Source: Bacteroidales bacterium (lineage in GTDB: Bacteria; Bacteroidota; Bacteroidia; Bacteroidales; VadinHA17). Taken from it: a stretch of 64,000 nucleotides of DNA. A program made the position numbers and the translations under genes. The notes beneath the pieces were generated by a model, which saw only the letters and a list, made by a program, of their open reading frames with translations, had not been told where the DNA came from and did not search any database. Shown here piece after piece: positions 184 to 29,601 of the stretch (positions within the stretch are counted from its first letter, which is position 1; each line of letters starts with the position of its first letter). The stretch is from NCBI GenBank assembly GCA_022865305.1, contig JALHSP010000018.1, forward strand, positions 1 to 64,000. The letters are read 5' to 3'.

Positions 184-1617
184 TTATAGTCCTGATTCTT
201 TAACAATTCTTTCCACAATTGCCTCCCATCCCAGCGTCATCAGATGAATGCCATTAATGCCTTTTTTCCGTTTTACTGAATCAATCATTTCCAGAGCGAT
301 CTGAACTCCTTCTTCACTAGCTCCATCGCCCGCTTTCTCCATACGATTCAAAATATTTTCTGGCATGAATACACCCGGGACATTTTTTTGAAGATACTGC
401 GCAACCTTATAACTCTTAAGAGGAGATATGCCGATTAATATGAATACTTTATTCAACACATTCCTTTTATCCAGTTCTTCCAGCCACAGATCAATCCTTC
501 CAGGCTCAAAAATAATGTTTGTCTGGAAAAATTGTGCTCCGGCATTGATCTTTTTATGGTCCTTGATTGCCTGCAGTATCGGATCAGATGCGAATGGTGA
601 AGTTGCGGCACCCAGAAAAAACTCCGGAGGATTCTTTATCTTCCTTCCGTCAAGGTAGATGCCTTCATCTCTCATCCTTCTCAGTATCCATAACATCTGG
701 ACAGAATCTACATCAACAAAATTCATATCGCTTGTTGGTGAGGGTCCCACCACTGCACTGTCACCTGTAACACAAAGAACGTTCTTTATGCCCAACTGAT
801 TTATGCCAATAACAACTGACTGGAGACCTGTCCGAGTTGTATCACGGGCGGCGATCTGTAATACCGGTTCAGCATTCAGATCATACGCAATTTTGCAGCA
901 GGCTATGCTCGACATTTTAGGAATGGCCGATGCAGCATCAGTGAAGTTTATTGCTGTAACGTATGGCCTGACAAAATTTATTTCTTCAATCAGTTTGGCA
1001 GCTCTGGCTCCCAGAGGAGGAGACACTTCTGTTGCAACTACAAATTCACCATTCCTCAACCTGGTTTCCAGGATTGAGGCAGGTTGACTATATGCAGGAG
1101 GATGATAATCTGAATCTCCATTCCACCACTCAGGCTGACGTACAGGTTTAAAAACAGAGTTCCAGTTCCTTGTTCTCAACTCTCTGTCATTTGATAATGA
1201 ACCTTTAATAAAAGTACCTGTGCCAACGGTTCTAACCTGTTTTATCACATCAAGCCAGGTTTCAGTTCCGACTTTATTCCAGTCAAGAGGGGGAAGTATT
1301 TCAAGAAGCTTTTCCTGCCTTCCGGTTTTTAAAGCTCTCTTATAGATACAATACCAGACGCATTTACGGGTTTCATCGACATAGCAGTTTTTCTCAGGTG
1401 TAACTCCGCCACATGGTCCGTTCCTCATTCCTTTTGGGCATTCCATTGGACATATAAATGCCGTTTCCTGCAGCAGGCAGTTACCACACATACGACAACC
1501 ATATACAGGACCCTTTATTAATAATTCTATTTTAGCCCGGAATCGTTGGCTGAACTTTTCTTTTTTAAACGGGTAAAAGGCTGGTTGCCATCTGCGGGCG
1601 GGTTTAAGACCGAACAT
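184..1617 (-). CDS. MetV-MetF fusion: methylenetetrahydrofolate reductase with cysteine-rich N-terminal domain
   Basis: Predicted cytoplasmic 477-aa protein that interconverts 5,10-methylene- and 5-methyl-tetrahydrofolate. The first about 100 residues carry nine cysteines (C41, C44, C47, C56, C60, C69, C78, C86, C90), the pattern of the MTHFR_C/MetV zinc or Fe-S domain that is a separate subunit in acetogens. Residues from about 185 to the end are a MetF-type TIM barrel (EVSPPLGA near its start, LCVTGD in the middle). Standalone MetF is about 290 aa, so this is a two-domain fusion. It is the last gene of a three-gene minus-strand operon, 38 bp after the pterin methyltransferase, and would process the methyl-THF that enzyme makes. 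The electron donor cannot be read from the sequence. Start is ATG, with no good alternative. Confidence 0.85.
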   Translation of the reverse strand: MFGLKPARRWQPAFYPFKKEKFSQRFRAKIELLIKGPVYGCRMCGNCLLQETAFICPMECPKGMRNGPCGGVTPEKNCYVDETRKCVWYCIYKRALKTGRQEKLLEILPPLDWNKVGTETWLDVIKQVRTVGTGTFIKGSLSNDRELRTRNWNSVFKPVRQPEWWNGDSDYHPPAYSQPASILETRLRNGEFVVATEVSPPLGARAAKLIEEINFVRPYVTAINFTDAASAIPKMSSIACCKIAYDLNAEPVLQIAARDTTRTGLQSVVIGINQLGIKNVLCVTGDSAVVGPSPTSDMNFVDVDSVQMLWILRRMRDEGIYLDGRKIKNPPEFFLGAATSPFASDPILQAIKDHKKINAGAQFFQTNIIFEPGRIDLWLEELDKRNVLNKVFILIGISPLKSYKVAQYLQKNVPGVFMPENILNRMEKAGDGASEEGVQIALEMIDSVKRKKGINGIHLMTLGWEAIVERIVKESGL

Positions 1618-1655
1618 AAATAAGTATTATTCTGATAAATTATATAAATGTATTG

Positions 1656-2495
1656 TTACTGGTGACTCTGGAAGTATTCAACAAATCTGACAGCAAAATC
1701 ATCCCTGCCTAAAACCAGGTCGGCGGCTCGCACGGCTGCAGTTATTTTTTCAGGATTAGCTATCGGACATGTTAATCCATTATAAATTGACATCATCATA
1801 TAAGCTGCATTAAGTGATTCTCTGTCGGGTAATCCGAAAGAGATATTACTTGCACCCTGTGTTATATTATGACCTAATTTCTGATGGACCAGTCTGATAG
1901 TTTCAAGGGTAACCAGGCAGGCATTCGGATCTGCACTTACAGCCATGGCCAGAGGATCAACGATAACATCTTCAGCCTTTATACCGGTTTTAACAGCCCT
2001 GTTAATAATCTTTTCGGCAATTGCCAGTCTTTTTTCCGGATCATGAATTATACCTTCCTCATCCATACATAATCCGATTATTGCCGCACCAAAATCTTTT
2101 GCAATCGGTAAAAATGCTTTCATTGAAGCCTCTTCTCCATTTACTGAATTGATCAGACATTTGCCTTCGGCAACTTTAAGCGCAGCCTCGATCGCTTTCG
2201 GGTTCGGGGAATCAAGACATAATGGGATATCATATCTGGACTGGAGTTGTTTTACTGTTTCGGGCAGCAATTTTTCATCGTCTACACCCGGGAATCCAAC
2301 ATTAACATCAAGTACATCAGCGCCTGCTTTGATCTGGTTTCCTGCTAACTCCAGGACATATTCAAAATTACCCTCCTGTAAAGTAGATACCAGCTTCTTT
2401 CTTCTTGTCGGGTTTATGCTTTCTCCAATAATGATCACCGGACCGTCGGAATTAATAATAACTTCCCTTGTCCGGCCTTTAAGAATTGTTTTCAT
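1656..2495 (-). CDS. Methyltetrahydrofolate:corrinoid methyltransferase (AcsE/MtgA-like, pterin-binding TIM barrel)
   Basis: A 279-aa dihydropteroate-synthase-fold protein. Pterin-binding motifs are GESINPT at residues 24-30, DVLDVNVG at about 60, LCLDSPNPKAIEAAL at about 92-106 and INSVNGEE at about 116. Length and motifs fit the AcsE/MtgA/MtrH-type enzymes that move a methyl group between tetrahydrofolate and a corrinoid protein. It lies 15 bp downstream of the corrinoid-protein gene and 38 bp upstream of the MetV-MetF gene, so the operon could run corrinoid-CH3 to THF-CH3 to methylene-THF. The sequence does not reveal direction or original methyl donor. A true dihydropteroate synthase (FolP) is less likely given this neighbourhood. 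Confidence 0.85.
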   Translation of the reverse strand: MKTILKGRTREVIINSDGPVIIIGESINPTRRKKLVSTLQEGNFEYVLELAGNQIKAGADVLDVNVGFPGVDDEKLLPETVKQLQSRYDIPLCLDSPNPKAIEAALKVAEGKCLINSVNGEEASMKAFLPIAKDFGAAIIGLCMDEEGIIHDPEKRLAIAEKIINRAVKTGIKAEDVIVDPLAMAVSADPNACLVTLETIRLVHQKLGHNITQGASNISFGLPDRESLNAAYMMMSIYNGLTCPIANPEKITAAVRAADLVLGRDDFAVRFVEYFQSHQ

Positions 2496-2510
2496 TAAAA
2501 ATATTTTCCG

Positions 2511-3179
2511 CTAAGATACGAGTTGATTTAGATAATCTACTGCTCCCTGCGGATCGGGAGAATAAAAATCGGCTCCTATTCTTTCACAATAATCCATTGT
2601 AACAGGAGCTCCGCCAACAAGTATTTTTGATCCGGAATATTTTTCCCTGATTGCGGTAACAGTTTTCTTCATATTTTCCATTGTGGTGGTGAGCAATGCT
2701 GAAAGGCCTATTATTGCCCCGGGATTTTCATCGATGGCCTTCAGGAACTTATCTGTTCCCACATCAACACCCAGGTCTATCACTTCCCAACCACCTCCTT
2801 CTATCATCATTGCCACGAGGTTTTTGCCAATATCATGCAAATCGCCTGAGACAGTACCGATAATGAATTTCCCTTTTCGTGTTGCTTCACCAGACTGAAA
2901 AAAAGGTTTCAGATGCTTCATGGCGCTGTTCATTGCCTTTGCAGCCATAAGCATCTGGGGGACATAAATCTCTTTCCTGCTGAATTTGTTACCCACCACT
3001 GCCATTGCAGGAATAAGGGCATTCTCAAGTATGTCGTCAGGTCTGACACCGGATTCCAGTGCAAGTTTTGCAAGCTCATCAGCACCATCCTGACCTTTCA
3101 TATCAGGAGGATAAGGCGAGATCTTGTCTATTTTCCCAAATTCAACACATTTTGCCAGTTTTTGCAGAATTTCACTCAT
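2511..3179 (-). CDS. Corrinoid (B12-binding) protein of a methyltransferase system
   Basis: A 222-aa cytoplasmic protein with the two-domain layout of MtbC/MttC/MtgC corrinoid proteins: a helical cap (about residues 1-95), then a Rossmann-like B12 domain. The cobalt-ligand motif D113-L-H115-D-I-G118 is intact, followed by GLSALLTTT (about 158) and VGGAP (about 190), the usual DxHxxG...SxL...GG signature. First gene of the three-gene methyl-transfer operon. In other anaerobes a substrate-specific MtxB methyltransferase sits beside such a protein; none does here. The nearest candidate is the URO-D family gene at 28.5 kb, which is distant and speculative. Confidence 0.88.
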   Translation of the reverse strand: MSEILQKLAKCVEFGKIDKISPYPPDMKGQDGADELAKLALESGVRPDDILENALIPAMAVVGNKFSRKEIYVPQMLMAAKAMNSAMKHLKPFFQSGEATRKGKFIIGTVSGDLHDIGKNLVAMMIEGGGWEVIDLGVDVGTDKFLKAIDENPGAIIGLSALLTTTMENMKKTVTAIREKYSGSKILVGGAPVTMDYCERIGADFYSPDPQGAVDYLNQLVS

Positions 3180-3352: not shown

Positions 3353-4438
3353 TTAAAAGTTAATGACTGTAAAATAAGCCTGTTTGGGTAAATAATTTTC
3401 ATCGAACAGGAAAGGATAGTTTTTTCTTCCTGCCACAGGAAAATTGTCCAGCCAGGAGTAATCATCGGCCAAACCCCAGAAGGTGATACCAGTAATGTCG
3501 CTTTTATAGTTCCGGAATGCAATGAAAAATCTCCCATAGGCAACAGCCTGTTTTAGTGCCAGCTCAGCAGTATAAAGACTTTCAGGATCAGAATTGGATC
3601 CATACACAGAAACATCAAACTCCGTTATCTGAAGCTCCAGTCCCAATGATTTGTATTTGTCGAATGCTGCCGTGATAAGATCATTGGATGGATAATTAAT
3701 GTTCCAGTGTCCCTGCAGGCCCATCCCGTCAACAAGGTTCTGGGCTTGTAGTTTTACCAGCAGGCTGTATATCTTATCTCTTTTAGTCGGATCAATTGCT
3801 GTATAATCGTTATAGAAAAGTATTGCATCGGGATCTGCTTCCCTCGCTGCCTTAAATGCCTCGAAAATATAGTCTTCACCGCATATTGTATACCATTTTG
3901 AAGCTCTGTAAGTTGAGCTGCCGTCATCAATAGCCTCATTGACAACATCCCAGGCATATACTTTACCTTTAAAATGGTTGACAACTGTCGTTATGTGTGT
4001 GCGCAGCCTTTGTAAAACAAGCTCTTTGGAAGCATCAGCTGTTCCATCATTGAAGATCCACGCCGGAATCTGGTTGTGCCAGCAAAGACAGTGACCCCTT
4101 ACTTTCATCTCGTTAGCCTGAGCAAAGGCAACAATTTTATCTGCATTCGTAAATGTGAAGGTTCCTTCCGTTGGCTGAAGTGAAGACCATTTCATGTCAT
4201 TTTCGGCTGTCACGCTGTTGAAATGACGCTTGATCAGATTTACCTTGACCTGATTATCAACAAAAGATGAAGGTATTGCTACACCCATGTAGAAATACTC
4301 AGCAGGAGTAAAATAATCCTTAAGACCCTCAGTTGCAAGTTTATATTCTTCTAGGTTCTTGTCCACGGGAGGTTCATCTTTGTCGCATGACATATCTCCA
4401 CATGAAATTGCCAACAGTATTATCCATAGCTTTTTCAT
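3353..4438 (-). CDS. Endo-1,4-beta-xylanase, GH10, lipoprotein
   Basis: Retaining glycoside hydrolase family 10 enzyme cutting internal beta-1,4-xylosidic bonds. I start it at the ATG at 4438 because the next residues form a lipoprotein signal (MKKLWIILLAISC, lipid-accepting Cys13); a longer reading frame to 4528 would put 30 unrelated residues before the signal peptide. In the 361-aa form the acid/base Glu is E168 (WDVVNEA) and the nucleophile is E273 (ELQITEFD). The conserved substrate-binding stretches (GHCLCWHNQ, FYNDY, GLQGHW) are also present. It lies 155 bp downstream of susD on the same strand, so it is probably the surface enzyme of a xylan utilisation locus. The catalytic residues look functional. 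Confidence 0.93.
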   Translation of the reverse strand: MKKLWIILLAISCGDMSCDKDEPPVDKNLEEYKLATEGLKDYFTPAEYFYMGVAIPSSFVDNQVKVNLIKRHFNSVTAENDMKWSSLQPTEGTFTFTNADKIVAFAQANEMKVRGHCLCWHNQIPAWIFNDGTADASKELVLQRLRTHITTVVNHFKGKVYAWDVVNEAIDDGSSTYRASKWYTICGEDYIFEAFKAAREADPDAILFYNDYTAIDPTKRDKIYSLLVKLQAQNLVDGMGLQGHWNINYPSNDLITAAFDKYKSLGLELQITEFDVSVYGSNSDPESLYTAELALKQAVAYGRFFIAFRNYKSDITGITFWGLADDYSWLDNFPVAGRKNYPFLFDENYLPKQAYFTVINF

Positions 4439-4593
4439 CCCGGCTTCCAACGTCATCGGTTTAACGATAATTTTCAATAAAGATAAAAAAGTGTCCGCTG
4501 GTTTAGCCGCGGACACTTTGAATTGCAACTTTTTAGTTAATTATAAACTTGATATTGTAAAACCAGCTATATTTCCTCCATCCTACCATCAGA

Positions 4594-6549
4594 CTATCTA
4601 TATGCGGGGTTCTGATAAGCAGCTTTTTCTTCTGCGGTCATTTCCATGCCATCAAGCTGGCTTTGCGGAATGGGGCGCAGATAGTAATTCACTCCAATGG
4701 TACGTGTTACTGTTACCGGAGTATGGTCTCCAACTGCAGTTCCGCAAATCTGGTAAGAGCCAGCAAGTTCTGCCCATTTTTGCGTACGCACCAAATCGTA
4801 CCAGCGATAACCTTCGCCAAATAATTCGCGCGAACGTTCTGCCAAAATATAGTTAATGGTTATAGTTGCCGGTGTGGCAGCGATCATAGCTGCGCTATTG
4901 TCTTCAGCTTTGGCGATTTTACCGTTGTTGTTCCAGCGCCATTTTCCGGCACGTGCACGAATAACATTAATCAAATCTAATGCGGTTTTACCCGCTGTAG
5001 TAGTTGCACCCTTCACAGCTGCTTCGGCCGCTATAAAGTAGAGCTCCGAGAATTTGGCAATGACGAAAGGACGGGTACTGCCGGCATTCGGTTGTCCCAA
5101 TGAGGCACCATTGTCGGTGCGGTAGGGATTAATCTTCCAAAGCCCCGGATATGCGTACCTGCTTATGCCGCTCGGCCCTACCACAAAATCGGCTCTTCCG
5201 GGTAATACACCTACCCCGACATTACTTTTATATACCGAATTAGAGTAATCAATAGTTGGATCATCATTGTCCAGGAAAGTAAGTATTGGATCACCCGGGT
5301 AAACCTGCAAATTGTTTGCATTATATAAAAACAAATTCAACTTATCACTTGCGCTACCTAAATTCCAGTTGCCTCGGTAAACGGTTGCAAAGGTGCCATC
5401 GTAACGGGAATCATTCGTCTTGTCGGCAAAGGTGGTTGTAAATATGGTGATAGGGGGGACCGTACCTGTCCACGGACGGCCCAATGGCTGTGATGCTTCA
5501 CGCTGAACAGAACTTAAAACAGTACTCCAGGCTGTATTAATAGCACTTCTGATGTTTGTATAGTTCCACGTGGTCATCCAACTTGCAAAGTTATCAGCGC
5601 TGCCACCACCGCTATATGTAAGGCTGGCTGCGTTATAAAGTTCGCTTGCCTGCGTGTGGTCGGCGTACAGCAGAATTTCCTTGTTGCGGTCGTTTGACCC
5701 CAGGTTGACGTCATAGTAATATGTCAGTAAGCCGAAAGGTCCCGGATCATCAATGGCGGCTGTTGCCACGCTGTATGCCTGCTGATAATACCACGCGGCA
5801 TTATGACCGTCAGGGTCGGTCCGGGCACACTCGGGATAAGTAGGAATGCTGTTTGGGTTTTCGAGCCACCAACCGTATGTCAGGTAAGCTTTTGCCAGAT
5901 AAAGGCGTGCAACCGTTTTGGTTACACCGCCGGTTACGCGTCCGGTTGCCGGCAAATCGTTTACCGCTGTCAGCAGGTCCGGGAATATGGCTTTGGTATA
6001 GACCTCAGGAACTGTGTTGCGAACAGAAGTTCGCGCCGTTGAGGTATTGAACTTCAGTTCCCCTGCGCCCAGATCCAATGGCACTCCGCCGAAAGTTTGT
6101 ACCAGCAGAAAGTAGTCGAACGCACGAAAGAATCTGGCTTCGGCAATCAGCGCATTCGAAATAGTTCCTACTGCTGTAGCATTTTCAATGATACCGCTGG
6201 CGGTGTTGATGTTTGGGAATACACCCCACACTCCAGCAGCAGGGTTTTGTTGGGAAGTAAGCGTCCCCTGGCCGGAATTGTCAAGCCATTTAGAGTCATT
6301 ATTCACATTCTGACCCCATGTTCCTTCATCTGTACCGGCCTGGCAGCTCTCATAGTAGTAGCCATTTCCGTAAAAATAGCGCAGGTGAGCGTACATTCCG
6401 GTTAATCCTCCCATAACACCTTTGTCGGTTTTGAAATATTCTGGGGTATAAATACTGCGCGGCTGTTCATCGAGAATATCAGTGCACGCCAGCATGAACA
6501 ACGCTAAAACTGCTGTTCCTATAAAGGTTTTTAAATGTATACGTTTCAT
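4594..6549 (-). CDS. SusD/RagB-family outer-membrane glycan-binding lipoprotein
   Basis: A 651-aa lipoprotein (lipobox ending LFMLAC) of the SusD/RagB family. It forms the hinged lid of the SusC transporter and binds oligosaccharides at the cell surface. Family features seen are the early DEQP segment after the lipid Cys, TPR-like helical repeats with Tyr/Trp-rich stretches, and a C-terminal half with LDLINVIRARAG and ILAERSRELFGEGYRWYDLVRTQ, which is very typical of SusD proteins. It lies 12 bp downstream of the SusC gene and upstream of the GH10 gene, which suggests xylan or arabinoxylan oligosaccharides as ligand. Codon use in this gene and SusC looks more GC-rich than in the flanking genes, though I have not measured it. 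Confidence 0.95.
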   Translation of the reverse strand: MKRIHLKTFIGTAVLALFMLACTDILDEQPRSIYTPEYFKTDKGVMGGLTGMYAHLRYFYGNGYYYESCQAGTDEGTWGQNVNNDSKWLDNSGQGTLTSQQNPAAGVWGVFPNINTASGIIENATAVGTISNALIAEARFFRAFDYFLLVQTFGGVPLDLGAGELKFNTSTARTSVRNTVPEVYTKAIFPDLLTAVNDLPATGRVTGGVTKTVARLYLAKAYLTYGWWLENPNSIPTYPECARTDPDGHNAAWYYQQAYSVATAAIDDPGPFGLLTYYYDVNLGSNDRNKEILLYADHTQASELYNAASLTYSGGGSADNFASWMTTWNYTNIRSAINTAWSTVLSSVQREASQPLGRPWTGTVPPITIFTTTFADKTNDSRYDGTFATVYRGNWNLGSASDKLNLFLYNANNLQVYPGDPILTFLDNDDPTIDYSNSVYKSNVGVGVLPGRADFVVGPSGISRYAYPGLWKINPYRTDNGASLGQPNAGSTRPFVIAKFSELYFIAAEAAVKGATTTAGKTALDLINVIRARAGKWRWNNNGKIAKAEDNSAAMIAATPATITINYILAERSRELFGEGYRWYDLVRTQKWAELAGSYQICGTAVGDHTPVTVTRTIGVNYYLRPIPQSQLDGMEMTAEEKAAYQNPAYR

Positions 6550-6561
6550 TTTTATCCTTTT

Positions 6562-9500
6562 TTAAAATGTTAAATTAATACCAATCAAGTAGTTGCGCGT
6601 TGAGGGCGTATTGGTGCCTAAAGTCAGCAGACGTCTCCTGTAAAAGCTGGTAGTCGCACTATTTTCATTGCCGTATGAGTTGGTTTCCGGATCCATACCT
6701 GATTCTTTGTGGTAAGGTGAGAACATCACCAATGGGTTCTGTAAAGTGATGTAAAGCCGCAGTTTGTCAATACCTGCTTTTTTAATCCAGTTGTTTTGGT
6801 CTAAATTATATGCAAGAGTAATGGTGCGGATCTTCAGAAACGATGCGTCGAAGTAGGAAAGGGACCTGAGATACTTTGGTTGATCGCCGCCAAGTCCCCC
6901 AGGTCTTGGAAACCTGGCGATGGTGTCTGTCGGTGTCCAGTAGTCTACCTTTATATTTCCCCTGCGGGCGGTCAGAATATTGAGGTAACTTTGATCTCCA
7001 TAGAGGGTGCTGATGAGGATACCACCTTTTTGAAAGGCGCCGACAACGCTCAGGTCAAATCCTTTATAGGTTACGCGTGTGTTGAACCCTCCCTGAAAAT
7101 CGGGCTCTACGTCAATAATCTGCCGGTCGGAGGCGTTAATTGCCCTGGACGGTGTAACACCATCGGCAGCGTAATCGCCGGTATATTTCACTTTAATCAT
7201 ACCTGCATTCCCACCCGGTTCCAGGATATTCAGATACGGATCTGACGCCTGCCAGAGTCCTGTGGCCTCCCAGTCATAGATTACATTAATGGGATGGCCT
7301 ACAAACCACCAGTTGAATTCGTCCTTCACTTGTCCCGAAGCAAGCGCTACCAGTTTATTGCGGTTGGCGTACAGGTTGATGCCGGCGTCCCATGTAAAAC
7401 CTCTGAGGTTGTTCAATATCACGCCGTTGAGTGCAATTTCCAACCCTTTGTTCTGGGTTTTGCCTATATTTGCCATATAGCTGTTCACACCTGATGTAGC
7501 AGGCAGATTAACACTCAGCAGGACATCGTTGGTATTCATTATATAATACTCTACCGTACCGGTCAAACGATTCTTCAGCAGGCCGAAGTCCAGGCCAAAG
7601 TTCCATGTCTTGGAGAATTCCCAACCCAAATTAGGATTAGGCAACGAAGATACATAGTAGCCTGTGGAGTACGCTGTGCCAAAATTGTAAGGACGAGTGG
7701 CTAAAAGTCCAAGCGTACTGTAAGGATTAACAGATTGGTTGGAGGTTTCTCCATAGCCCACACGCAGCTTCAACGAAGTTATGGGGGCGATATCCTTCAT
7801 AAACGATTCGTTTTTGATATTCCACCCGGCTGAAACAGCAGGATAAGAATGCCATTTATGCCCCGGCGCCAGCACTGAGGAGGCATCGGAGCGGTAGGAA
7901 ACGCTCAGCATATAGCGGTTGTCGTAAGAGTACATTACGCGTCCCATCCACGAAATCAAGCCGCTCATATTATAGCCCTGGTAATCAGGGTTAACCGCAA
8001 TTTCTCCGGCTGCCCGTCCCAGATTGTAGAACTGGAAGGCGTCGGCGGGAATATCCTTTGCCGAAACATATGAACTGTTGTACATGGATTGCTCGGCAGA
8101 GTACAACGCTACTACATTCACCTGATGCTTCCCAGCAAAGGTGCGGTCGTAGGTCAGCAGGTTTTCAATTGCCCAGTTGGTGGTAAGCGAATTGCTGATA
8201 GAAGCAGTTGAAACGGTTGTAGCAGTGGAACTATTTATTCCCTCTCCTGTGTAGCTGCCAGCGTTACTCATGCGGAAGTTCAAGCCAATGTTGACGCGAT
8301 ACTTTAAGCCCTCTACTCCCGGGATTTTCACTTCGCCGTATAGGCTGTTGTAGGAGCCATATGCCTTGGTTTGGCTTAACCATTTATCGCTTAAACTATC
8401 TGCTATTTCTCTTGTATTTGTCCAGTATTCATCTAACGGCATCTTTATGGTTCTTTTCCATGAGCCATCAGCGTTATACGGGTTGGCAATAGGCGTCAAG
8501 GCTAAAACAGCGCCCAAATCCAGCTGGGTGCCTTTAGTAATGTTATAGTTATTGTTTGTAGTGAAGCCGAAGCGGAAAAATTTGCCTATTTCCTGGTCAA
8601 GAGTACCGCGCATCGAAAAACGTTCGTATTGCTGCGTAGGAATTACGGCTTTATCCTGGAAGTAGCCAATGCCGAAGGTATAGCTGCCCTTTTCGGTGCC
8701 ACCCGAAATGCCTAAGTCGGTGCTTGTTACTGAACCGGTTCTATAAAACAAGTCCTGCCAATCGGTATTTACATCATCGGCTTCATCCAACGAGTTTGTG
8801 TAATTAGTTTTCCAAAAGGCTGCTTTACGAAGAGCAACAAATTCCGGCCCGTCCATCATGGGGTAAGGGGCAAAAACTGTTTTCAAGCCATAATAACTAT
8901 TTAAGGTCACCTGTGCTTTTTGTCCGATCTGCCCCTTGGTGGTTGTTATCAATATAACGCCATTGGCGCCGCGCGAGCCGTAAATGGCTGTTGCTGAGGC
9001 ATCCTTCAGGATGTCAAGGCTCTTGATGTCGTTGGGATTGAGATCGCCGAGTGACCCGGCAAAGGGGATACCGTCGACGACCACCAGCGGGTCGTTGATG
9101 GCATTCAACGAGCGAGTGCCGCGAACGCGGATCTGCATTGTGGAGCCCGGTTTGGATGATGTTTGCTCCATATCCACCCCTGGTATGCGTGCCTGCAAAG
9201 CCGTCGTGATATTACCCGATGGCACATCGCGCAACACATTTCCACTGATTGAAGCAACTGAACCTGTCACAGCTTCTTTCCTTTGAGTACCATAGCCTAT
9301 AACCACAACTTCCTCCAATCCTGTTACGGTTTCGGTAAGTGTCACGCTGATGACTGTTTGTGCTCCTACTGTGACATCCTTTGTTTCATAACCAATGAAT
9401 GAAAACGACAATACTGACTTTGGTGAAGCGACTGTGATTGAAAATTTACCATCAGCGCCTGTCATTACACCATTTATTGTACCTTTTTCCAGCACATTGA

Positions 9501-9708
9501 CCCCGGCCATGGGATTATTGCTGGCATCCACAACAGTACCTGTGATAACTTTCTGTTGCAGATCTTCAGACATCCTGATATCTGAACCGCTCAGGGCGAA
9601 AAGCTGAAAAGTGCCCTGTAGCAATAAGAGGCAAATAACTCCAGATATCAGAAAGATTTTTTTCAAGCATTTTTGACTCAAAATGCTTTTCGAAGGACTT
9701 TTTATCAT
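6562..9708 (-). CDS. SusC/RagA-family TonB-dependent outer-membrane transporter
   Basis: A 1048-aa TonB-dependent importer for oligosaccharides. Order: signal peptide/transmembrane segment (about 18-40), carboxypeptidase-regulatory-like beta-sandwich (GTVVDASNNPMAGVNV to about residue 130), TonB-box region (EEVVVIGYGTQ), plug domain with RGTRSLNAINDPLVVVDG and the ASATAIYGSRGANGVILI signature, then a 22-strand barrel ending in a hydrophobic terminal strand (YLIGINLTF). There is no N-terminal STN domain, so direct coupling to an anti-sigma factor is unlikely. Transcription appears to start about 200 bp upstream; the leader holds a candidate antisense RNA. First gene of the SusC-SusD-GH10 unit. 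No HTCS, SusR or ECF sigma regulator is encoded nearby. Confidence 0.96.
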   Translation of the reverse strand: MIKSPSKSILSQKCLKKIFLISGVICLLLLQGTFQLFALSGSDIRMSEDLQQKVITGTVVDASNNPMAGVNVLEKGTINGVMTGADGKFSITVASPKSVLSFSFIGYETKDVTVGAQTVISVTLTETVTGLEEVVVIGYGTQRKEAVTGSVASISGNVLRDVPSGNITTALQARIPGVDMEQTSSKPGSTMQIRVRGTRSLNAINDPLVVVDGIPFAGSLGDLNPNDIKSLDILKDASATAIYGSRGANGVILITTTKGQIGQKAQVTLNSYYGLKTVFAPYPMMDGPEFVALRKAAFWKTNYTNSLDEADDVNTDWQDLFYRTGSVTSTDLGISGGTEKGSYTFGIGYFQDKAVIPTQQYERFSMRGTLDQEIGKFFRFGFTTNNNYNITKGTQLDLGAVLALTPIANPYNADGSWKRTIKMPLDEYWTNTREIADSLSDKWLSQTKAYGSYNSLYGEVKIPGVEGLKYRVNIGLNFRMSNAGSYTGEGINSSTATTVSTASISNSLTTNWAIENLLTYDRTFAGKHQVNVVALYSAEQSMYNSSYVSAKDIPADAFQFYNLGRAAGEIAVNPDYQGYNMSGLISWMGRVMYSYDNRYMLSVSYRSDASSVLAPGHKWHSYPAVSAGWNIKNESFMKDIAPITSLKLRVGYGETSNQSVNPYSTLGLLATRPYNFGTAYSTGYYVSSLPNPNLGWEFSKTWNFGLDFGLLKNRLTGTVEYYIMNTNDVLLSVNLPATSGVNSYMANIGKTQNKGLEIALNGVILNNLRGFTWDAGINLYANRNKLVALASGQVKDEFNWWFVGHPINVIYDWEATGLWQASDPYLNILEPGGNAGMIKVKYTGDYAADGVTPSRAINASDRQIIDVEPDFQGGFNTRVTYKGFDLSVVGAFQKGGILISTLYGDQSYLNILTARRGNIKVDYWTPTDTIARFPRPGGLGGDQPKYLRSLSYFDASFLKIRTITLAYNLDQNNWIKKAGIDKLRLYITLQNPLVMFSPYHKESGMDPETNSYGNENSATTSFYRRRLLTLGTNTPSTRNYLIGINLTF

Positions 9709-9820
9709 AGATTTGCTTTTAAGGGGTTAATTATAAAAACAACATTAAAAAATGTTCACAACCTTTATTAGTTAACTTCTGACTACAGGAGATGCCGTCA
9801 CATCTCCTGTTAATTTTTTG
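9708..9820 (+). ncRNA. Candidate antisense small RNA opposite the SusC leader (promoter plus terminator)
   Basis: On the plus strand TAGATTTG (9708-9715) is an exact match to the Bacteroidetes -7 box TAnnTTTG; it overlaps the SusC start codon. About 70 bp downstream, a perfect 10-bp stem (ACAGGAGATG 9785-9794, CATCTCCTGT 9801-9810) is followed by TTAATTTTTT, a good intrinsic terminator for plus-strand transcription. Start near 9720 would give an RNA of about 100 nt, complementary to the SusC 5' leader. Cis-antisense RNAs of this design repress polysaccharide loci in Bacteroides (DonS type). Weak point: no convincing -33 TTTG box at the expected distance. The hairpin could instead be a leader structure of the SusC mRNA. 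Confidence 0.45.
9785..9820 (+). terminator. Intrinsic terminator-like hairpin in the SusC leader, plus strand
   Basis: A perfect 10-bp stem (ACAGGAGATG / CATCTCCTGT, 6-nt loop) is followed on the plus strand by TTAATTTTTT. The U-rich side faces away from SusC, so as a terminator it belongs to a plus-strand RNA, not to SusC. No plus-strand gene lies immediately upstream, which is why an antisense RNA is proposed. Confidence 0.65.
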
Positions 9821-9916
9821 AAAAATATTTTAAATCATAGGCATAACTATTTAATTTTCAAATACTAACTATCATATATTTTGAATTATATATCAGGTAT
9901 TACAAAGGCCAATTAC

Positions 9917-9947
9917 CAAATTTAAGAATATTTTTCATTTTTGCAAC
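9917..9947 (-). promoter_or_regulatory. Bacteroidetes-type promoter of the SusC-SusD-xylanase unit
   Basis: Reading leftward, GTTG (9947-9944) and TAAATTTG (9924-9917) are separated by 19 bp. The second box matches the TAnnTTTG consensus exactly and the first matches three of four bases of TTTG. Start of transcription would be near 9910, giving SusC a leader of about 200 nt that includes the antisense hairpin. The rest of the 9709-10042 gap is AT-rich and also holds the upstream region of the divergent TolB-like gene. Confidence 0.6.
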
Positions 9948-10042
9948 CGATTGCAGTAATATTTTTCGATATTTTTATTACAAAAGTTGATTACCTTTAA
10001 AAAATATCATCCATTTTCCATTTTATTAAATTGATCGCGCAT

Positions 10043-11566
10043 ATGAAATATTTTATGATCTTATTCTTTTGCATACTGAGCAATGTTACATTAGCCCAGA
10101 ACCTGCAAACAGGTGTTTTTCAATTCAATACCGATATCGGAAATCCCAAAAACCCTGGTTCTGCCATTTATGATAAGGCAGAACAGTCCTACTCACTCAA
10201 AGGATCAGGTTATAATATCTGGTTTGAAAGAGACGAATTTCATTATCTGTATAAAAGCATAAAAGGCGATTTTATCCTTACAGCTAATTTCAAATTCGAA
10301 GGTAAGGGCACAGAACCCCACAGGAAAACAGGGTGGATGCTGAGAGCTACAACAGATGATAATTCTCCACACATATCCGCAGTCCTTCATGGCGATGGAC
10401 TTACAGTAATGCAGTGGAGGGATTATGAAGGAGCCGCAATGAAAGATCCTGAAGATGAGGTATTTGCCAGAGGATCAAACTACGAAATTATCCAGATTGA
10501 ACGCTCAGGCAAGATCATATTTATGAGAGCTGCCCGCCAGGGAGAACCTCTTGAAGCTATAGGTTCATACGAAATGATCAACCTGCCTGATGAAATTCTT
10601 GCAGGCCCGTTTGTCTGTTCGCATAATCCTGAGGTCACTGAAGAAGCCAGGATATGGAACGTTCGTATCGACAGACCTGTTGGTGATAATTATAATCCGG
10701 GAAAAGAAGGATATCTGAGCTGCCGGCTCGAGACAATGAACGTATCTGATGGTAAGAGACTTGTAATCTTTGAAAAGCCTGGCAGATTTGAAGCTCCGAA
10801 CTGGATGCCGGATGGTAATAACCTGCTTTTTAACATGGATGGACTTCTTTATAAGATCCCTGCAATCGGTGGAGAACCAGAAAAACTTAATACAGGATTC
10901 GCTGACAGGAACAACAATGATCATGGGATTTCTTTTAATGGCAAGCTACTTGCTATAAGCCATCAAAGGGAAGGGATGGCTGGAGGAGGATCAACTGTGT
11001 ATGTCCTGCCGCTTAAAGGCGGAACACCAAGACTGGTGACAGAAAATACTCCTTCCTACTGGCACGGATGGGCACCCAATAATAAAGAGGTGTTGTACGT
11101 AGCTCAGCGGAATGGTATACCTATATATAATATATACAAAAATTCAATTAAAGGTGGTAAAGAGGTTGCCCTGACCAATATTAAAACCGGTCAGCATGTG
11201 GATGGCTGCGAATATTCACCTGACGGAAAATATATTTATTTTAACGGAAATTTAACCGGAACCATGCAAATATGGTGGATGAAGCCTGATGGTTCATCCA
11301 TGGAACAGATGACTTTTGATAATTACAATGACTGGTTTCCTCATATATCACCGGACGGGAAATGGATCGTCTTTATCTCCTTTCTGCCGGAAGTGAACCC
11401 GAATTCCCATCCTTCCTATAAAAGGGTAATGCTCAGATTAATGCCTGCGTCAGGAGGTGAGCCCAGGGTGATAGCATATCTCTTTGGAGGCCAGGGAACA
11501 ATTAATGTGCCCTCGTGGTCCCCTGACAGTAAACAGATTGCATTTGTAAGCAACTCGGGAAAATAG
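10043..11566 (+). CDS. Exported TolB-like beta-propeller protein with N-terminal concanavalin-like domain
   Basis: Start taken at ATG 10043, which gives a clean signal peptide (MKYFMILFFCILSNVTLAQ). About residues 20-200 look like a DUF1349-type beta-sandwich; residues from about 230 carry TolB/WD40-like propeller repeats (SPDGKYIYF, SPDGKWIVF, SWSPDSKQIAFV). Similar Bacteroidota proteins are secreted and lie near glycan loci; their biochemical role is uncertain. It is divergent from SusC. The protein ends abruptly after a propeller blade (NSGK). In the -1 frame an acidic/basic stretch runs on (EDPEDNEDEKPEKKK) past the stop, so a frameshift near 11560 is possible but unproven. Confidence 0.7.
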   Translation: MKYFMILFFCILSNVTLAQNLQTGVFQFNTDIGNPKNPGSAIYDKAEQSYSLKGSGYNIWFERDEFHYLYKSIKGDFILTANFKFEGKGTEPHRKTGWMLRATTDDNSPHISAVLHGDGLTVMQWRDYEGAAMKDPEDEVFARGSNYEIIQIERSGKIIFMRAARQGEPLEAIGSYEMINLPDEILAGPFVCSHNPEVTEEARIWNVRIDRPVGDNYNPGKEGYLSCRLETMNVSDGKRLVIFEKPGRFEAPNWMPDGNNLLFNMDGLLYKIPAIGGEPEKLNTGFADRNNNDHGISFNGKLLAISHQREGMAGGGSTVYVLPLKGGTPRLVTENTPSYWHGWAPNNKEVLYVAQRNGIPIYNIYKNSIKGGKEVALTNIKTGQHVDGCEYSPDGKYIYFNGNLTGTMQIWWMKPDGSSMEQMTFDNYNDWFPHISPDGKWIVFISFLPEVNPNSHPSYKRVMLRLMPASGGEPRVIAYLFGGQGTINVPSWSPDSKQIAFVSNSGK

Positions 11567-28527: not shown

Positions 28528-29601
28528 ATGAATCCAAAAGAAAGGATTATCAATATACTGCAAAGAAAGACTGTAGACAGGATCCCGGTAGATATCTGGC
28601 ATACACCCGAGGTGGAAGATGCGTTAAAACAATTTGTAAATGCTGAAGACAATTTTGAAATGTGGAAAAAGCTGGGGGTGGATAAAATAGTCTGGGTTTT
28701 TATGGATTATAAGACACCGGAAGGGGAGAGTACCGGCTCACAGCCTGGGGCAAATGCAACAGGCATCCGCACAATGTGGGGAGTTCCGCTCAGGGATGTA
28801 AAAGCAGGTGCAGCACATTACCAGGAATTTGTGGAACCTCCTATGAGAGGATATACCACCCCTCATGAAGCAGATAATTACCCTTTCTGGCCTGATCCTG
28901 ATCTGTTTGATTATGAATCAGCTTTAAACCTTGCAAAACGGGCTTCATCCGACTTTGCCGTCATAGGACCATGGGTTTCGTTCTTTGAAATTTACTGTCA
29001 GCTTAGGGGCATTGAACAGGGATTGATGGATATTCTTGCATATCCCGATCTTGTATCAGCCACCCTCGACAAAATAGAGGCTATCCAGACCGAGATGCTC
29101 ATAAGGTTCCTGGATAACGCTGCAAAATATCTTGACCTGGTATTCATAAGTGATGATATCGGCGGTCAGAATAATCTGCTTATTTCACCTGAAAGCTGGG
29201 AATTTTTCCTCAAGCCACGAATGGAAAGATGGTGCGCACTGATACATTCTTACGGACTGAAGGTCTTCTACCATACAGATGGTGCCTCGGAAAAACTGAT
29301 AGCTCCTCTGATAGAATGTGGCATCGATGTTCTGAATCCTGTGCAGCATGTCTGTCCTGGTATGGAAATGGCATCTTTGAAAAAGAAGTATGGGAATAAG
29401 GTTATTTTTCACGGGGGTGTTGATAATCAACATGCACTTCCATTTGGCTCGGTAAGAGAAGTCCAAAAAGAAACTTTAAACTGTCTTGAAACGCTCGGGA
29501 AAGGTCGTGAAGGCTTTATTTGCTGCTCATGTCATAACATACAGGCAGGAACACCGGTTGAAAATATTATAGCAATGATTGAAACAGTCAAAAACTGGTG
29601 A
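28528..29601 (+). CDS. Uroporphyrinogen decarboxylase (URO-D) superfamily protein, methyltransferase-like
   Basis: A 357-aa URO-D-fold protein. It is unlike true HemE, which starts with a conserved FLRAL...RQAGR motif absent here. The start NPKERIINILQRKTVDRIPVD and the VFYHTDGASEKLIAPLIECGIDVLNPVQ and KVIFHGGVDNQ segments match the MtaA/CmuA-like branch that handles methyl-corrinoid chemistry or is uncharacterised. A zinc site could come from H in FYHTDG and Cys in CCSCHN. It might be the methyl donor partner of the corrinoid operon at 0.2-3.2 kb, but that is inference and the genes are 25 kb apart. Confidence 0.75.
   Translation: MNPKERIINILQRKTVDRIPVDIWHTPEVEDALKQFVNAEDNFEMWKKLGVDKIVWVFMDYKTPEGESTGSQPGANATGIRTMWGVPLRDVKAGAAHYQEFVEPPMRGYTTPHEADNYPFWPDPDLFDYESALNLAKRASSDFAVIGPWVSFFEIYCQLRGIEQGLMDILAYPDLVSATLDKIEAIQTEMLIRFLDNAAKYLDLVFISDDIGGQNNLLISPESWEFFLKPRMERWCALIHSYGLKVFYHTDGASEKLIAPLIECGIDVLNPVQHVCPGMEMASLKKKYGNKVIFHGGVDNQHALPFGSVREVQKETLNCLETLGKGREGFICCSCHNIQAGTPVENIIAMIETVKNW

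Follow-up and report, generated by a model that had tools for sequence, protein, structure and literature searches.

Which elements set the expression of the SusC gene in a xylan-type locus of a Bacteroidales bacterium, and does an RNA encoded opposite the SusC leader take part in it? The locus lies in the window, i.e. the whole stretch of 64,000 nucleotides analysed here (G000:C119), which comes from a genome of 4.98 Mb. SusC (6562-9708), SusD (4594-6549) and a GH10 (endoxylanase-type) gene (3353-4528) are all located on the minus strand, and a divergent PD40-type gene begins at position 10043. Two other gene sets of the window are mentioned in passing: a methyl-transfer set composed of MTHFR, pterin-binding and corrinoid-binding genes (184-3179) is present 3′ of the GH10 gene, on the same strand and beside the xylan locus, and a URO-D family gene is located at 28528-29601. 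An earlier note on this DNA had proposed that a cis-antisense small RNA controls the SusC gene. From the sequence evidence presented below we consider it likely that a DonS-like cis-antisense RNA of ∼99 nt covers the SusC leader, ends at a terminator and would lower SusC, and that sense transcription would be under LacI-type control.

Several RNAs of this kind have been described. Excerpts of PMC7366714 present DonS as one member of a family of 78-128 nt cis-antisense RNAs that are divergent to susC and reduce its expression, give as consensus promoter boxes TAnnTTTG at -7 and TTTG at -33, and tie the family to PULs for mucosa-derived glycans. For B. thetaiotaomicron, 32 PUL-associated antisense RNAs are reported, both correlated and anti-correlated with susC, and the SusC antisense RNAs covered there are those of gut Bacteroides, one of which, in B. 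fragilis, has been validated as a repressor (excerpts of PMC10994844). A trans-acting RNA control of SusC mRNAs near their start codon is exerted in B. thetaiotaomicron by FopS/GibS together with RbpB (excerpts of PMC11697453). FopS RNAs form a multicopy family, share a seed and target susC mRNAs elsewhere, whereas the RNA predicted here would be encoded opposite its presumed target. A scan of positions 9400-10300 against Rfam (E up to 10) gave three hits with E values of 0.25, 4.9 and 8.8, far under the gathering scores, and FopS/GibS was not among them, although the Rfam copy used may not include FopS.

The predicted antisense unit begins on the SusC start codon. A -7 box of the sigma-ABfr type TAnnTTTG, TAGATTTG, is located on the plus strand at 9708-9715, where it overlaps the start codon, and this is the position given in the earlier note. 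That note had called the antisense -33 box poor; the box is in fact absent from the window, the nearest TTTG (9672-9675) being located 32 nt before the -7 box. In the relatives no -33 box stands out either, and no consistent position of CAA or CAAA was found in the SusC coding start. Downstream of the -7 box the plus strand contains the hairpin sequence ACAGGAGATG-N6-CATCTCCTGT (9785-9810), in which 9785-9794 and 9801-9810 form a 10-bp stem, followed by TAATTTTTT with a T-run at 9811-9819. The expected hairpin with T-run thus exists, and as measured the intrinsic terminator spans 9785-9819 (plus strand).

How exceptional is this pair of signals? A simple scan of 901 bp returned two terminator-like sites against 0.3 expected, one of which is the site at 9785-9819. 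When no fewer than 9 stem pairs and at least 5 T in 8 were required, a single terminator per strand was found in the 64-kb window. Boxes matching TAnnTTTG number 18 on the plus and 28 on the minus strand. Just one of them, that at the SusC start codon, has a strong terminator 50-125 nt downstream, and none of 24 shuffled strands contained such a pair. We also considered that the hairpin is part of a genome repeat and rejected this, as its 8-bp core has no second exact match in the genome and the next best match has 2 mismatches.

With a start 6-8 nt past the -7 box, the predicted RNA would extend from about 9721 to 9819 on the plus strand; its ∼99 nt, calculated from the positions of box and terminator, agree with the approximately 100 nt proposed before. 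This RNA has a predicted fold of -27.1 kcal/mol (z -5.34), which was equalled by none of 200 shuffled sequences. The fold consists of a 5′ stem-loop (9722-9780), in which 9722-9737 would pair with 9764-9767 and 9769-9780 (arms AAGGGGUUAAUU... and ...GUUAACUUCU), and of the terminator hairpin as second stem. Across the 40 units that have both box and hairpin (see below) the predicted lengths range from 64 to 117 nt, with a median of 96 nt.

A hairpin in front of a gene may function in either strand, and we therefore compared 155 distinct SusC leaders, a sample that was partly picked for hairpins and in which the leaders are not independent. Their sources include 80 stretches among the SusC matches listed and 30 supplied loci; L012, L024 and L111 (contig edge) and L184 (no start) were dropped, L173 is a duplicate of L171, and L279, L282, L287, L291, L298, L305, L306 and L307 stayed outside the set. 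A strong hairpin is present 38-95 nt ahead of the ATG in 69 of the 155 leaders. For the comparisons the leaders were split into 58 with a hairpin flanked by at least 4 A in 8 positions, 86 with no strong hairpin at 38-95 nt (counting L005, whose start was wrongly chosen), and 11 that belong to neither group, since their hairpin is present but its flank is not A-rich.

One alternative to be weighed here places the hairpin in the SusC mRNA leader, for instance as a 5′ stabiliser, an attenuator or a protein site, where it would work together with an upstream ORF (uORF) on the sense strand. In the window this short uORF, ATGCCTATGATTTAA, is located at 9830-9844 (minus strand) with an inner start motif GCCTATG at 9842-9836, and its stop lies ∼11 nt past the predicted 3′ end of the antisense RNA. 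GCCTATG was the top-ranked 7-mer, present in 16 of 42 leaders against 0.42 expected, and it is followed by an A-rich spacer and then by the hairpin. The spacing speaks for a joint function on the mRNA: GCC[TA]ATG is located 23-46 nt before the hairpin in 40 of the 42 leaders with both elements. So does the reading frame, because the uORF frame stops ahead of the hairpin in 38 of 51 cases, against 15 of 51 and 21 of 51 for the other frames (p = 6e-6). The sense leader of the window, moreover, has a fold with a z of -3.11.

In ten g14 orthologs the leader contains an 8-codon ORF (MRxNDNSx type), for which pairwise differences number 73, 56 and 165 at codon positions 1, 2 and 3, respectively. Together, the frame bias for a stop before the hairpin and the excess of third-position changes point to translation of the uORF. 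The uORF and the hairpin also tend to occur together (42/58 vs 20/86, a comparison that includes loci chosen by a model containing both elements; 31/46 vs 18/84 when the model-selected loci are left out). Two observations on the uORF itself may be added. The MRxNDNSx leader ORF (L067-L073, L077-L079) precedes an orthologous SusC in a sister genus, and an antisense unit is not evident there. The uORF peptide varies between paralogs, and many SusC leaders of the genus have a uORF at the corresponding position.

The features of the hairpin itself, however, argue for the other strand. An A-run (at least 5 of 8) adjoins its 5′ side in 53 of the 69 leaders, whereas a sense T-run (at least 5 of 8, 3′ side) was found in 2 of 69; an A-run beside the hairpin on the sense strand is a T-run on the antisense strand. 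When the 58 A-flanked hairpins were read on the sense strand, the mismatches were mostly A.C (57), with 14 G.T and 7 others, so that they break the stem of an mRNA and become G.U pairs in an antisense RNA. As A.C on one strand equals G.U on the other, it is apparently in an antisense-strand RNA that the hairpin is maintained. For 26 non-redundant hairpins the asymmetry was modest (A.C 20 vs G.T 7, p = 0.019). As a control we used 300 ORF ends, where 14 sense terminators had 9 G.T and 1 A.C, and 14 hairpins that carried an A-run in place of the T-run had 6 G.T and 10 A.C.

Predicted stability agrees with this. The antisense strand folds more stably than the sense strand in 55 of the 58 hairpin leaders, and it does so in 48 of 58 when only the part from start to terminator is taken, with a mean difference of -4.2 kcal/mol. 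Leaders without hairpin have the same lean to a smaller extent (antisense better in 49 of 84, -1.2 kcal/mol, p = 0.011). The eight hairpins used as model seeds are 90% paired on the sense strand with 6 pairs that have two-sided changes, which indicates that the stem is conserved and does not tell the strand. A hairpin of the sense leader had been our initial reading, and it was dropped in view of the A-run that adjoins the hairpin on its 5′ side, and of mismatches that are A.C and not G.T. Taken together, the comparative tests support a transcription unit on the antisense strand rather than a hairpin of the sense leader, and in spite of the uORF data we regard the latter as quite unlikely. Conservation of the hairpin only as a leader structure of the SusC mRNA was the outcome that the earlier note had named as contrary to its proposal, and this is not what the comparison gave.

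If the antisense unit is real, its promoter box should accompany the hairpin. We searched for CAAANNTATG, the form of the start context on the sense strand that is the complement of the antisense TAnnTTTG. It is present in 40 of the 58 leaders with an antisense-type hairpin and in 8 of the 86 without hairpin (p = 6e-14). The association was retained when the model-selected loci were omitted (33/46 vs 7/84), and also when the ortholog group of the window was omitted in addition (29/39 vs 6/72). The value of 40/58 may be an undercount, because the starts of at least L288, L290 and L295 seem to be placed too far upstream; conversely, shared descent may inflate the association between box and hairpin, since both accompany STN-type SusC (see below).

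These data bear on a second alternative, namely that the plus-strand unit is noise and that the terminator only halts stray antisense transcription before the upstream gene. A TAnnTTTG box could arise from the A-rich context that precedes an ATG, and according to the excerpts of PMC7366714, the transcripts from 73% of the antisense starts in B. thetaiotaomicron were short and weakly expressed. Against this stands the base at -7, which is C with a frequency of 0.83 in the 58 hairpin leaders and of 0.23 in the 86 others. Furthermore, in 6 of 8 leaders there is a stem in the 5′ half of the predicted RNA, a feature that would be superfluous in an element serving only as an insulator. We therefore judge the noise explanation to be unlikely, and the antisense unit, given its recurrence ahead of similar genes of related genomes, looks like a real switch of the kind found in gut Bacteroides rather than a chance pattern. 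As far as sequence can tell, the box, the terminator, their strand, their joint recurrence and the fold are supported. The cis-antisense proposal of the earlier note is thus backed by the side of the T-run, the wobble asymmetry, the association with the -7 box and the stability of the antisense fold.

Within the ortholog group of the window the unit is variable. An exact antisense -7 box is present in 5 of 10 close leaders (L093, which is that of the window, L005, L007, L009 and L046) and a degenerate one in L004, L006, L008 and L287. L046 has the box and no strong hairpin, L003 has neither box nor hairpin, and L009 has a hairpin from which the T-run is absent. On the antisense strand, the terminator stem of eight ortholog leaders including the window displays 6 one-sided and 2 two-sided changes and 4 broken cells; on the sense strand of the same leaders, 4 cells are A.C and 1 cell is G.U (which is A.C on the antisense strand), the stems predicted for the two strands differing in their end pairs. 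The antisense 5′ stem forms in six of these eight leaders (the window and L005-L009); it is absent in L287, and L004 folds differently.

All eight aligned ortholog leaders contain the 26-bp inverted repeat with a 6-nt centre, an arrangement that would also suit a DNA operator for a regulator. The arm sequences vary, however, between SusC leaders of the own genome (L083, L093, L096), the mismatches are strand-asymmetric, and a separate LacI-type operator is already present (see below), so that an operator function of the repeat is very improbable.

To what extent does the unit recur? A covariance model of uORF start plus hairpin, built from eight leaders, was searched in 56 genomes of the genus and 30 loci were kept. 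Twenty-five of them are located 84-142 nt before a SusC-like ORF; among these 25, 7 are seeds of the model and 3 more were known SusC leaders beforehand. Among the 20 new loci, 15 precede a SusC-like ORF, L287 precedes a SusC cut by the contig end, and L298, L305, L306 and L307 are weak matches without SusC. The cut-off of the SusC signature TIGR04057 was passed by all 10 ORFs tested of those 15. Both parts, i.e. start box and antisense terminator, are present in 40 of the 155 leaders, and in the own genome in 2 of 22 SusC leaders, that of the window (L093) and L096.

The recurring partner, SusC in 15 of 20 new loci, also bears on the possibility that the divergent PD40-type gene, which is located ∼220 nt downstream on the same strand, has an attenuated leader made up of the plus-strand promoter and terminator. 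Moreover, a like unit is found at the STN-type loci L074 and L075, where the gene directly upstream is of the FecR type and oriented in the SusC direction, and where there is no divergent gene. We consider such a leader highly improbable.

DonS-type RNAs accompany sigma/anti-sigma PULs. In the genus, an STN domain (PF07660, Pfam scan) was found in 44 of 54 SusC proteins with an antisense-type hairpin and in 3 of 61 without; 54 of the 58 and 61 of the 86 leaders were covered, the rest having less than 60 aa of sequence. The SusC of the window has no STN match though the hairpin is present, and thus is an exception in its genus.

Outside the family, 2 of 57 readable leaders from ten genomes look complete (L219 and L253) and the others have hairpin or box only; this sample comprised 60 leaders minus L249, L251 and L264, and L190-L218 were left out. 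In L231 (G137, another family) we observed a possible uORF, then a hairpin with A-run before SusC, and no start-codon box. Among the best 30 SusC loci of a longer list for Bacteroides luti, L340 has an antisense-type terminator 53 nt before the start and no start-codon box, and L334 has a start-codon box and no strong hairpin. An antisense promoter fused to the SusC start is therefore not general.

How is sense transcription controlled? The SusC promoter of the earlier note was recovered on the minus strand, with its -7 box TAAATTTG at 9924-9917 and a probable mRNA start near 9910. Positioned 17 nt before this box, and covering the sense -33 position, is a palindrome, TGCAATCGGTTGCA (9942-9955, minus strand), which constitutes a putative LacI-type operator. 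It is exact in 9 of 10 close leaders including that of the window, and has 2 mismatches in L046. The only other exact copy in the genome (L310, 1726-1739) is located between a LacI-family gene, followed by a GH67 gene, and a divergent GH115 gene. As the operator is common to the SusC promoter and the LacI/GH67/GH115 site, the SusC-SusD-GH10 locus is most likely part of a glucuronoxylan regulon with its regulator gene at another site. The earlier statement that the locus is without its own regulator gene hence holds locally but not genome-wide, since the operator copy adjoins a LacI gene flanked by GH67/GH115. What the locus has in common with LacI-family control of xylan genes is the 14-bp site, present at the SusC promoter as well as between LacI (with GH67) and GH115; it differs in that the leader also carries a predicted antisense RNA.

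For antisense transcription, the RNA ends, repression, its condition and LacI binding we infer the following course of events. The antisense RNA would start at the TAnnTTTG promoter on the SusC start codon, head away from the gene through the leader and stop at the intrinsic terminator 9785-9819, folding as a 5′ stem-loop plus terminator hairpin. Its pairing with the leader directly 5′ of the SusC start codon, or else a collision of the two promoters, would most likely lower SusC expression in the absence of xylan or in the presence of a better sugar, and a LacI-type repressor bound at the operator over the -33 position would most likely set sense transcription.

The predicted RNA resembles DonS in being antisense and divergent to a susC homolog within its leader, in its length, which with its predicted ends is within the published range (excerpts of PMC7366714), and in the sigma-ABfr -7 box TAGATTTG. 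It lacks the -33 TTTG box of the DonS family, and it differs in its locus, which is xylan-type (GH10) and not a PUL for mucosa-derived glycans, in a SusC without STN domain and in the LacI-type operator at the sense promoter. Because of the GH10 locus and the operator shared with GH67/GH115 we propose that it probably works like DonS, and do not claim membership of the family; its xylan locus under presumed LacI control, its SusC without STN domain and the uORF next to it would make it a variant of the DonS kind. The promoter placed exactly on the start codon and the uORF beyond the terminator may also set it apart from DonS. In the limited set of literature excerpts covered here, neither a uORF in SusC leaders nor a fusion of an antisense promoter with the SusC start was found described.

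A broader interpretation, which we put forward tentatively, is that these elements form a three-part module of the SusC leader: a translated uORF, an antisense RNA that ends just past it, and a promoter fused to the start. Competition for the leader between the antisense RNA and ribosomes translating the uORF might then act as a translation-sensitive switch, which in the genus would occur mostly with SusC of the STN type (sigma/anti-sigma signalling) and would here be joined to a LacI-controlled xylan regulon.

The results raise the question of why a LacI-controlled xylan locus should have an antisense unit, and of the role of the uORF. They also indicate that the unit is recognisable from sequence alone in another genus, by CAAANNTATG at the SusC start and an antisense terminator 38-95 nt upstream, a signature that would let candidate antisense-controlled glycan loci be listed in uncultured genomes.
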